From assembly GCA_030525245.1 (NCBI GenBank), contig JAUNFB010000011.1:1-36017 (forward strand): a DNA stretch of 36,017 bases. Direction: 5' to 3'. Origin of the DNA: Erysipelotrichia bacterium. GTDB taxonomy: Bacteria; Bacillota_I; Bacilli_A; Erysipelotrichales; Erysipelotrichaceae. Position 1 is the first letter of the stretch; every line of letters starts with the position of its first letter. Shown here one piece after another: positions 21,864 to 24,580 of the stretch. The notes beneath the pieces are model-generated. The model was not told the origin of the DNA and searched no databases. It saw nothing but the letters and a program-made list of their open reading frames with translations. The position numbers and the translations under genes are program-made.

Positions 21864-21899
21864 GGCATAAGATGCAATTTCCTATCTTATGCCTTTTTT
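21864..21899. terminator. Bidirectional terminator
   Basis: A perfect 10-bp stem, GGCATAAGAT (21864-21873) with ATCTTATGCC (21884-21893), followed by TTTTTT. It ends the plus gene stopping at 21860 and faces the minus lipoprotein gene, whose stop at 21898-21900 touches the T-run. On the minus side it is followed by ACTTTATTTT. Confidence 0.9.
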
Positions 21900-22440
21900 A
21901 GTCGACACTGTTCTCCGTAAATTTAATGTTATAACCGGTATTAAGCCACAAAGCAAAAAACTTCTCATCAAAATGGTAATCGATAGCATCGCCGTTATAA
22001 CGAACGCTAACTGTAGAAAATTTATCATCGACAATCAATAAAGTTTTATTATCGAATTCAATATAATTAATATCATCGGTTAATATTCCGTTTTTCACTA
22101 CTTCATAGTTGTCTAGATATTTATCATTAGGATAATCATTATAAAGTGTGATTTTCACGACATAATATTTTTTATCGTTATCGATAAATTCTTGATGATA
22201 TGTTCTAAAGGGTGCTTTTATTTTTTCTCCTTGATACTCTTTGTTGTCAAAATCCTTCACTTCAACTGTTTCGTTTCTGATATCGGCAATTTCATACTCA
22301 CTTTCATCTGATACTTCACTGAAGATAAAATCATTGATTCCTTCGTTCTTAACATCATATTTAGCTTGATACTGCTCATTTTTATTACAGCTGGCCAAGC
22401 ATAAGGTAATACATACAACTATAATAAATCGCTTTACCAT
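21898..22440 (-). CDS. Small lipoprotein of unknown function
   Basis: 180 aa. The signal peptide MVKRFIIVVCITLCLASC has a lipobox LASC, so lipidation at Cys 18 is predicted. The mature part is acidic (many Asp, Glu, Asn) and beta-rich, with no motif I know. The start overlaps the end of the secreted-protein gene by 7 bases, and GGAGG lies 7 bases ahead, so the two are co-translated. They are probably partners at the cell surface. It is part of the accessory patch beside the transposase remnant. Confidence 0.7.
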   Translation of the reverse strand: MVKRFIIVVCITLCLASCNKNEQYQAKYDVKNEGINDFIFSEVSDESEYEIADIRNETVEVKDFDNKEYQGEKIKAPFRTYHQEFIDNDKKYYVVKITLYNDYPNDKYLDNYEVVKNGILTDDINYIEFDNKTLLIVDDKFSTVSVRYNGDAIDYHFDEKFFALWLNTGYNIKFTENSVD

Positions 22441-23732
22441 ACCGGATCCTCCCCATTGTAATAATAAATCGATGTACCTGTATCTGCATAATAATATGCA
22501 CTATTTTCGTACCAATCCAATGTTTCTGTCAATAAAGGATACCATAATTGTTCGTGCTCCTCTCCATAAACGTGCCATGCCCCTGAACCTAAATATCTAT
22601 AACTTCTTTGACATACAATATGAAATTTTCCATCATTTGGATAACTATCCGTATGAGCATCGGCCACACTGTTTATCGTCCAATAATGTAATGAGTTTTG
22701 GCTTAATGTAGATGTATCACTACATCCAACACACATATGGACCTCATATTCAATATCCCCAAAATTAGTATCTAAATAAGCACTACTTCCCATGTTTGAA
22801 TTCCATGAACAATTTATAGCATATTGATAAGCTCTTCCACGTCTGCTAACTGGATTATTATAATAATTGAAGAAAACGACTTCTAATTCTAATGCTTCAT
22901 TCGAATCAGAATTTAAATTACGATAATTTTCAGAATTATACATAAAGTACAACTTTGTTTTATTATATCCTGGAGACACATTGCTTTCGAATCCAACATG
23001 TATTCTTGTCGGTAGCCAATTATGACCGGAAGAGTAGCGCCTATTTCCATCTCCTTTATGTGGAGAACTTAAATTAGTACTACAGTATGAGTCAGTGTTA
23101 CTAAATCCATCGTGATACATTTCTCTACCAGAAACGGTTTTATGATAACAATAATTTATTGGCAATTTTAACAATTCATTGTTAGCTTTTGAAATACTTT
23201 CTTCATATTTACTTTTACTATATCTCTCACTAATGTTTTCTTCAGCAAAAGCATTTAAACAATATATTTCACCATCAATATTTTCTTTAAACTCCTTATT
23301 TTCGTATGTTTCATTTAAATCATGTTCTTCCACAAATTCAAAATAAATTAATTCTAAATCGTTTATTTCAAGTTTTTTCAAATTATTATTGCATGAATTT
23401 GTTTTGTTTTCTGACTGATTTGCAATTTCATCATTAACTTGCGCGATGTTAAGATTTAATTGCTGAATCAAGTAATCTCTAGTAAATTTATTAGATGAGC
23501 ACACCCCAATCGTATATTCTTCATATCCCTTAAAGAAAAAAACAAATTGTGTAATATTATCGCTAATTAGTAAATCATCAAATTTTTTGGAAGTATATGG
23601 TATTGGAGAAGATAAATAGCATCTATACTCATACTCTTTGATGCTTTTTTCAAAAGAATCTGATGCATGTACAGGTATAAAATTCAAAATAACAATTATA
23701 AAAGTTAATAAAACAGATATTGTCTTCTTCAT
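22434..23732 (-). CDS. Secreted protein of unknown function
   Basis: 432 aa with a clear signal peptide (MKKTISVLLTFIIVILNFIPVHA, cleavage before SDSFE). The mature protein is rich in Asn, Ser and Tyr. The C-terminal half is beta-like and aromatic (CYHKTVSGREMYHDGF, YEVHMCVGC, AWHVYGEEHEQLWYPL, ending in GEDPVW). No catalytic motif, sorting signal or repeat unit is recognised. Start ATG 23732 is chosen because it begins the signal peptide and forms an ATGA overlap with a mini-ORF; a GTG at 23753 in the same frame would add METRKNY-type residues. Neither has a good ribosome site. The text looks more AT-rich than the flanking housekeeping genes, suggesting transfer. Confidence 0.65.
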   Translation of the reverse strand: MKKTISVLLTFIIVILNFIPVHASDSFEKSIKEYEYRCYLSSPIPYTSKKFDDLLISDNITQFVFFFKGYEEYTIGVCSSNKFTRDYLIQQLNLNIAQVNDEIANQSENKTNSCNNNLKKLEINDLELIYFEFVEEHDLNETYENKEFKENIDGEIYCLNAFAEENISERYSKSKYEESISKANNELLKLPINYCYHKTVSGREMYHDGFSNTDSYCSTNLSSPHKGDGNRRYSSGHNWLPTRIHVGFESNVSPGYNKTKLYFMYNSENYRNLNSDSNEALELEVVFFNYYNNPVSRRGRAYQYAINCSWNSNMGSSAYLDTNFGDIEYEVHMCVGCSDTSTLSQNSLHYWTINSVADAHTDSYPNDGKFHIVCQRSYRYLGSGAWHVYGEEHEQLWYPLLTETLDWYENSAYYYADTGTSIYYYNGEDPVW

Positions 23733-23767
23733 ATAATTTTTGCGAGTTTCCACATTCTTCTTTGCAT
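23729..23767 (-). CDS. Possible 12-codon coupling ORF
   Basis: ATG at 23767 opens MQRRMWKLAKII and stops at TGA 23731-23729, which overlaps the ATG of the secreted-protein gene as ATGA. It may feed ribosomes to a gene that has no ribosome site of its own. GACGAG lies a few bases upstream. Very short, so chance is possible. Confidence 0.25.
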   Translation of the reverse strand: MQRRMWKLAKII

Positions 23768-23792
23768 TTTCTCGTCTTACATAATTCCTTTC

Positions 23793-23879
23793 TTAATTTG
23801 CAAAGATGTTATTGCCACATATCTTACGAATAAATGAAAAATTATATTCCGGGTTCCATTCGCATTTAACCCCTTTCAT
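23793..23879 (-). CDS. Possible 28-aa leader ORF
   Basis: ATG 23879 to TAA 23793, in the 5' leader of the secreted-protein gene. The peptide starts MKGVKCEWNPEYNF and has two Cys. The ATG is about 9 bases after the predicted transcript start, without a clear ribosome site. Directly after its stop come GAAAGGAATT and then ATG-TAA (a start-stop pair). Confidence 0.3.
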   Translation of the reverse strand: MKGVKCEWNPEYNFSFIRKICGNNIFAN

Positions 23880-23894
23880 TGTTTCTGCAAATAT

Positions 23895-23925
23895 ATTATA
23901 CCATACAAGAAAACAAAAATATCAA
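23895..23925 (-). promoter_or_regulatory. Promoter of the secreted protein/lipoprotein pair
   Basis: The minus strand reads TTGATA (23925-23920), a 19-bp spacer, then TGG-TATAAT (-10 at 23900-23895). The predicted start near 23888 gives an unusually long leader of about 155 nt. Confidence 0.55.
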
Positions 23926-24091
23926 TATAAAATAATTAATAAATTTTACATACCCGTCTTTAAAGTTTCTCACCATAAAAATTGGAAATAGGATTTATTT
24001 AAGGAAAATAATATTAAAATGAATTAAAAGTAGATAAAAATTAGGGTAAATAAGGATGTATAGATTATTTCAACTGTTCTTTCATTGATAA
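23926..24091. other. AT-rich gap without a gene
   Basis: No frame, hairpin or promoter on the plus strand stands out. It may include decayed 5' sequence of the transposase, but no readable protein segment was found upstream of the stop at 24089. Confidence 0.4.
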
Positions 24092-24580
24092 AGAAATAGG
24101 TATCAAATAGAGTTTAAAGAAGACAAAGAATATAATTTGTGCTTATCGAAAGCTAAGAAATTATGTGGATACAATCTTATAGTCACTTCCGAGATTAAGT
24201 TAAGTGAAGAGGATATATACAGCACATACCACAACTTATGGAGAATAGAAGAGAGTTTTAGAATTATGAAATCTGAGTTAGATGCAAGGCCTGTATTTCT
24301 CAAAACCGAAGCCACGGTACATGGATATTTTCTTATCTGTTATTTAGTCACAGTACTTGTAAGGTTATTACAGATATATGAATTAAATGATGAAGATTCT
24401 TTTCAACAATTATTTAACTTCTTTAGAAATTATACTGCAGCTAAAGTCGGAAACAAGTATCTCAATTTAGCTGTTAAATCTGAGTTTATTACTAAGCTTT
24501 CTGCTCTTACTAATTTACCTTTAAACAATGCGATTTTTACGGAAAAACAATACAAAAAGATTATGGATTACCATTGGTGA
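24092..24580 (+). pseudogene. IS1634-family (IS4-like) transposase remnant
   Basis: An open frame of about 160 codons matches only the C-terminal third of IS1634-type DDE transposases. It has KLCGYNLIVTSE, then the catalytic-Glu region LWRIEESFRIMKSEL, followed by ARPVF and HGYFLICYLV. A full-length protein has roughly 500-570 residues, and the first two catalytic Asp segments are missing. The frame is closed on the left by TAA at 24089 and has no real start (only TTG 24137). No terminal inverted repeats or target duplications were found. It is dead but its reading frame is still intact, so decay may be recent or the fragment may be a deletion product. Confidence 0.85.

Follow-up and report, generated by a model that had tools for sequence, protein, structure and literature searches.

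The window analyzed here, a stretch of 36,017 nucleotides from the genome of an Erysipelotrichia bacterium, carries on its minus strand a gene for a secreted protein, preceded by a predicted promoter and by a leader that holds several short open reading frames (ORFs). A lipoprotein-like gene overlaps its 3′ end and likely belongs to the same operon. The features are given below from the promoter downstream, with anti-Shine-Dalgarno (SD) pairing energies in kcal/mol.

23895-23925, minus strand: predicted sigma-A-type promoter, the best-scoring in the leader, with TTGATA (23925-23920), 19 nt, and an extended -10 TGG-TATAAT (23903-23895)
23793-23879, minus strand: 28-codon ORF, no SD (-2.2), not conserved
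23852-23876, minus strand: conserved leader element AAAGGGGTTAAATGCGAATGGAACC, one of six genomic copies, 18 of 24 positions invariant
23842-23859, minus strand: mini-ORF MEPGI-stop, in frame also from the ATG at 23865 (MRMEPGI-stop), SD pairing -11.8
23777-23792, minus strand: SD GAAAGGAATT with the start-stop pair ATG-TAA, SD pairing -10.3
23729-23767, minus strand: 12-codon ORF, MQRRMWKLAKII-stop, overlapping the main start by ATGA; SD weak (-3.2); window copy only
22434-23732, minus strand: secreted protein of 432 aa with an N-terminal signal peptide; alternative GTG start at 23753
21898-22440, minus strand: lipoprotein-like gene with its own SD, overlapping the 3′ end of the secreted-protein gene

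The main ATG of the secreted-protein gene occupies 23732-23730, and 23729 is the last base of the TGA that closes the 12-codon ORF. Anti-SD pairing at this start reaches only -3.3 kcal/mol, which confirms the statement of the initial annotation that the gene lacks a ribosome site of its own; the GTG at 23753, possibly the true start, likewise lacks an SD. The encoded protein has no Pfam, NCBIfam, PDB-sequence, phage or plasmid match, and its AlphaFold model is poor (pLDDT 48.5), with no fold match at E ≤ 0.001. A paralogue with 31% identity lies on another contig of the genome (C1:4382-5518), and a search of 273 genomes of the taxonomic family detected the protein family in no other genome; a search of about 85,000 species gave three distant relatives.

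Two traces of mobile DNA may lie upstream of the window promoter. One is the C-terminal remnant of a DDE transposase (24137-24577, plus strand), and the position of the gene or its promoter surroundings may be owed to an insertion element. The other, a stretch of about 100 bp that lies upstream of the promoter (23944-24043), is 77% identical to 1005-1182 of L011 on contig C129 of this genome (G000), an intergenic stretch before a lysA-like gene with no Rfam match; the likeness is possibly that of a miniature-element remnant.

The short ORFs of the window leader had been read as a reinitiation cascade or an attenuation leader, and all are present on the minus strand as described: the 28-codon ORF (23879-23793), the SD followed by the start-stop pair (23782-23777), and the 12-codon ORF (23767-23729) that ends in the ATGA overlap. 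Singly, these features are ordinary to mildly unusual. Among dinucleotide shuffles of the leader, 13% contain an ORF of at least 28 codons, 32% an ORF ending in ATGA (the main gene itself begins ATGA) and 2.7% an SD plus ATG-stop, the least expected of the three. All three occur together in 0.08% of shuffles, a figure that overstates their rarity because they were picked after the fact.

Searching the leader DNA against its own genome returns short matches on other contigs, three of which cover all or part of 23917-23775 and all include 23900-23852. The 25-nt element, which sits inside the 28-codon ORF in the window, reads AAGGRGTT(T)AAAYGCNARTGGAACC with its flanks. Its core, AAAYGCNARTGGAACC, has exactly six matches in the genome, against none for the reversed control pattern, and a sequence model of the six copies scores each at 45-57 bits, with the next genome match at 16.7 bits. 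A weak seventh match, C117:1156, lies within coding sequence and was rejected. The recurrence is solid, and the element is a leader feature clearly beyond chance that the initial annotation had missed. Sampled stretches of the six contigs have a GC content of 32-35% and tetranucleotide correlations of 0.98-0.99, a uniformity that argues for one organism and against assembly contamination. Every copy lies 3′ of a TATAAT-like box and 5′ of a secreted-protein or lipoprotein gene, as follows (core position, then the gene downstream).

C1:4091: paralogue of the window protein, with a frameshift close to its start in this assembly
C81 (window 23867-23852): window secreted protein
C100:18994: lipoprotein, in a tandem pair
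C103:16486: lipoprotein, ahead of genes for a response regulator and a likely sensor kinase
C123:13204: exported protein whose peptidase C39-like match is weak and below threshold
C126:16635: exported peptide of 90 aa

The genes behind the six copies look like accessory genes; the C103 lipoprotein has only weak relatives in the taxonomic family. As in the window gene, an SD is missing from the main start of the C1 paralogue (-3.7 kcal/mol), and the other four genes have SDs of -10.2 to -16.1 kcal/mol. The frameshift in the C1 paralogue separates the signal peptide from the rest of the protein (1350-1390 of L012, C1:3000-6500) and marks either a pseudogene or an assembly error. Directly upstream of the C1 copy lies a gene for a membrane-anchored LuxR-type regulator (L071, 2576-3967).

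The element has three parts: first a strong site for ribosome binding, then the conserved spacer TT(T)AAAYGCNA, and last RTG-GAA-CC. The SD part is spelled both GGAG and GGGG, and the spacer contains a one-base indel. Around the element, C81 and C126 can be aligned (73%) from the -10 box to the gene SD, and C81, C103 and C126 have an extended -10 and GAAAGGGG in common. Otherwise the sequence upstream, between -10 and element, and downstream is unlike among the copies.

Comparison of the leaders goes against conservation of the short ORFs named in the initial annotation. The ATG of the 28-codon ORF, about 10 nt from the predicted transcript start, recurs in the C103 and C126 leaders, where a stop follows after four codons (MKGV-stop), and the other three leaders lack it; the 28-codon ORF probably has no function in itself. 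Neither the start-stop pair nor the ATGA overlap is present in any of the five other leaders, and the closest homologue that the searches gave in another species (L067) has an ordinary leader of about 25 nt with neither the element nor mini-ORFs. In C126 the stretch aligned with AAGAAAGGAATTATG of the window is AAGAAAGGAAATTTATG, which there forms the actual start of the gene; in the window the aligned position is the start-stop pair, and the signal-peptide start follows 50 nt further on, with no SD.

In each of the six copies the element has the best-scoring predicted promoter upstream of it, with a -10 comparable to that of the window copy; the promoter of C1 is weak. Extended -10 boxes occur in C81, C103 and C126, the last with a perfect TTGACA. 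In five of the six copies the -10 box of this promoter precedes the core AAA by 21-27 nt (26-27 nt in C81, C103 and C126, the copies with clear promoters), and C1 has TTTAAT at the common distance, which is not its best-scoring site. The element is therefore predicted to fall within the first 40 nt of the mRNA (about +6 to +37). We rejected a promoter downstream of the element (TATAAT, 23846-23841), which has a lower score than the upstream promoter and is not shared by all six copies, and also an invertible-promoter or recombination site, since each locus has only one copy.

In all six copies the element contains an SD, 61-128 nt ahead of the main start and with pairing of -7.8 to -11.8 kcal/mol, and an RTG codon 10-11 nt downstream of it that begins RTG-GAA-CCN, so that an M-E-P start is common to all. 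The frame closes after 4-6 codons in five copies (MEPD, MEPGI, MEPDG, MEPGIK and MEPD). The exception is C123 (L074, 6007-7149), where the GTG frame of the element stays open and continues unbroken into the exported protein; translation from this GTG could yield a version of the protein that is longer by 23 residues at its N terminus. Five copies start with ATG and one with GTG, the third position of the Pro codon varies freely, and Asp is written GAC or GAT; together with the early stop in five of six, this pattern of variation fits an ORF. The chance of so many early stops is about 0.012, a figure to be read with the fact that three of the copies share the letters GATAA and are not independent, their ancestry being possibly common.

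At the level of RNA structure, the alignment of the element contains no consensus pairs, no conserved fold or attenuator structure was found, the leader has no terminator-like site, and the window leader folds no better than its shuffles (z -0.45). No Rfam model matches the window at gathering scores, and the leaders give only chance-level matches below them. The element has no copy in six congeners. Its exact pattern has no match in about 85,000 species genomes, a set from which the genome itself and very near genomes may be left out, nor in 2.9 million viral contigs, and the sequence model finds only weak, chance-level matches in 60 relatives. Across 316 genomes of the order, the core pattern matches once in each of four others, never preceded by the AAGGRGTT part, and the full element occurs in none of the 315 other genomes. 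A match at G030:C1:19474 was rejected: it follows a terminator-like T-run and is not ahead of an exported-protein gene.

In at least four further genera of the family, relatives of the LuxR-type regulator likewise stand ahead of genes for lipoproteins or exported proteins, so that the pairing of regulator and lipoprotein may be a recurrent type of locus. Reading by eye, we found candidate LuxR sites resembling AAATGGCGNANATNNGAACC between the luxR-like gene and the next gene in L132 (G035:C8), L131 (G265:C2) and L129 (G209:C56). In all three genomes the last such site stands 20 nt before a TATNNT box, and in two of them the sites are paired, about 31-32 nt apart.

The element recurs before six genes for exported proteins that are otherwise unrelated, and so it probably serves them as a common control element and does not belong to a one-off reinitiation cascade. 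The reading that we tentatively favor from these sequence patterns is that it may be a 5′-terminal ribosome-binding leader module, either a mini-ORF or a 30S-binding stabilizer, serving a species-specific set of exported-protein genes. A 30S subunit or ribosome would load at the 5′-proximal site and make, or pause on, M-E-P-(D/G), and this loading or pausing could determine how stable the downstream mRNA is and how well it is translated, much as a 5′ stabilizer or translated leader does. Both 5′-proximal SDs and leader stall sites stabilize mRNAs in Gram-positive bacteria (PMC4113751, PMC3997798). At the window gene, ribosomes would enter at the GAAAGGA/ATG-TAA site (23782), terminate at once and reach the ATG at 23767 or the main ATG by short-range reinitiation; such a local step is possible there, though it lacks comparative support. 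An RNA-level function is favored by the two SD spellings, the A/G change compatible with a start codon, the free wobble bases and the spacer indel. It is harder to reconcile with the conserved AAAYGC, which a plain SD-to-start spacer does not need, with the mini-ORF of C123, which does not close, and with the weak promoter of C1.

By its presumed working, the element would be a variant of known leader control, and a small literature search, aimed at mechanisms, found no description of the six-gene species-restricted set. It is possible, if doubtful, that the SD/AAAYGC/M-E-P arrangement is a previously undescribed, species-restricted leader element that would act as a common post-transcriptional switch, sensing ribosome state or a trans-acting factor.

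A credible second explanation places the function in DNA: the element would be an operator at the very start of the transcribed region, recognized by one regulator that the six genes share, perhaps the membrane-anchored LuxR protein encoded beside the C1 copy, and the SD and mini-ORF would be incidental. The scattered exported-protein genes form a regulon-like set, the -10-to-core distance is similar among the copies with clear promoters, and the six congeners lack both the LuxR gene and the element; LuxR relatives in other genera, moreover, precede lipoprotein genes with the candidate sites described above. However, most copies have no dyad symmetry (self-complementarity 44-73%, best only in the window copy), and an indel of one base falls inside the element. 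Its position downstream of the -10 box is unsuited to an activator, unlike that of the sites in the relatives, from which it also differs in arm spacing (about 20 vs 16 nt), and no element copy lies near the LuxR relatives. It seems unlikely to us that a small RNA acting in trans or an RNA-binding protein targets the element and thereby exposes or masks the SD. Among the variable positions of the core, a single RNA could accommodate the Y and both R positions through G-U pairs, except in C100, but a search for near-complements returned 43 matches, the six leaders themselves among them, against 24 for the control, and no antisense candidate stood out. The full 16-base complement of the element is found nowhere else within one mismatch, and the lack of a conserved fold also counts against this reading.

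We regard the reinitiation cascade or attenuation leader built from the 28-codon ORF, the start-stop pair and the 12-codon ORF as improbable. The ORFs exist, the main start has no SD, and the rarity of an SD plus ATG-stop among shuffles favors it; the broader idea of a translated or translation-linked leader fits. The cascade itself is undercut by a 28-codon ORF that is neither conserved nor provided with an SD, by a start-stop pair and ATGA confined to the window copy and missing from the homologue L067, and by the absence of an attenuator structure. Least probable of all, in our judgment, is a promoter-leader segment spread by duplication whose copies are alike through recent descent and have no function of their own. 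The alignable C81 and C126 leaders and the motifs that these two have in common with C103 would agree with it, but 18 of 24 element positions are invariant amid flanks that are otherwise unlike, a pattern that calls for selection.

Among known systems, the closest RNA-level analogues of the favored leader module are the STAB-SD of cry3A and the ermC leader (PMC4113751, PMC3997798). Like the STAB-SD of Bacillus thuringiensis cry3A, the element places a strong SD near a Gram-positive 5′ end (here a predicted one), far upstream of the gene start and ahead of genes that mostly have their own start region; it differs in that a longer conserved block (AAAYGC, RTGGAACC) follows the SD and opens a mini-ORF. 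With translated leader peptides of the ermC/ermA type it shares a short 5′-proximal ORF with a good SD, whereas here the ORF has only 4-6 codons, no conserved alternative hairpins and no known ligand, and is common to six unrelated exported-protein genes. LuxR/GerE-type operators offer the parallel of a single site that dispersed genes have in common, one of these genes lying next to luxR, but the element has no clear dyad symmetry, lies downstream of the predicted promoter and tolerates a one-base indel. The T-box antiterminator contains the letters TGGAACC; the likeness ends with these seven letters, and neither a T-box nor another Rfam family is matched here.

The locus illustrates how reading a single leader can mislead, as its conspicuous ORFs are not its conserved part. 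What the comparison defines, from sequence alone, is a set of accessory exported proteins that may form a regulon in a low-GC bacterium of Gram-positive type, tied together by one compact element that can be tested with a single reporter. If the element acts at the RNA level, its ribosome-loading site and 4-6-codon ORF would constitute a portable control module.
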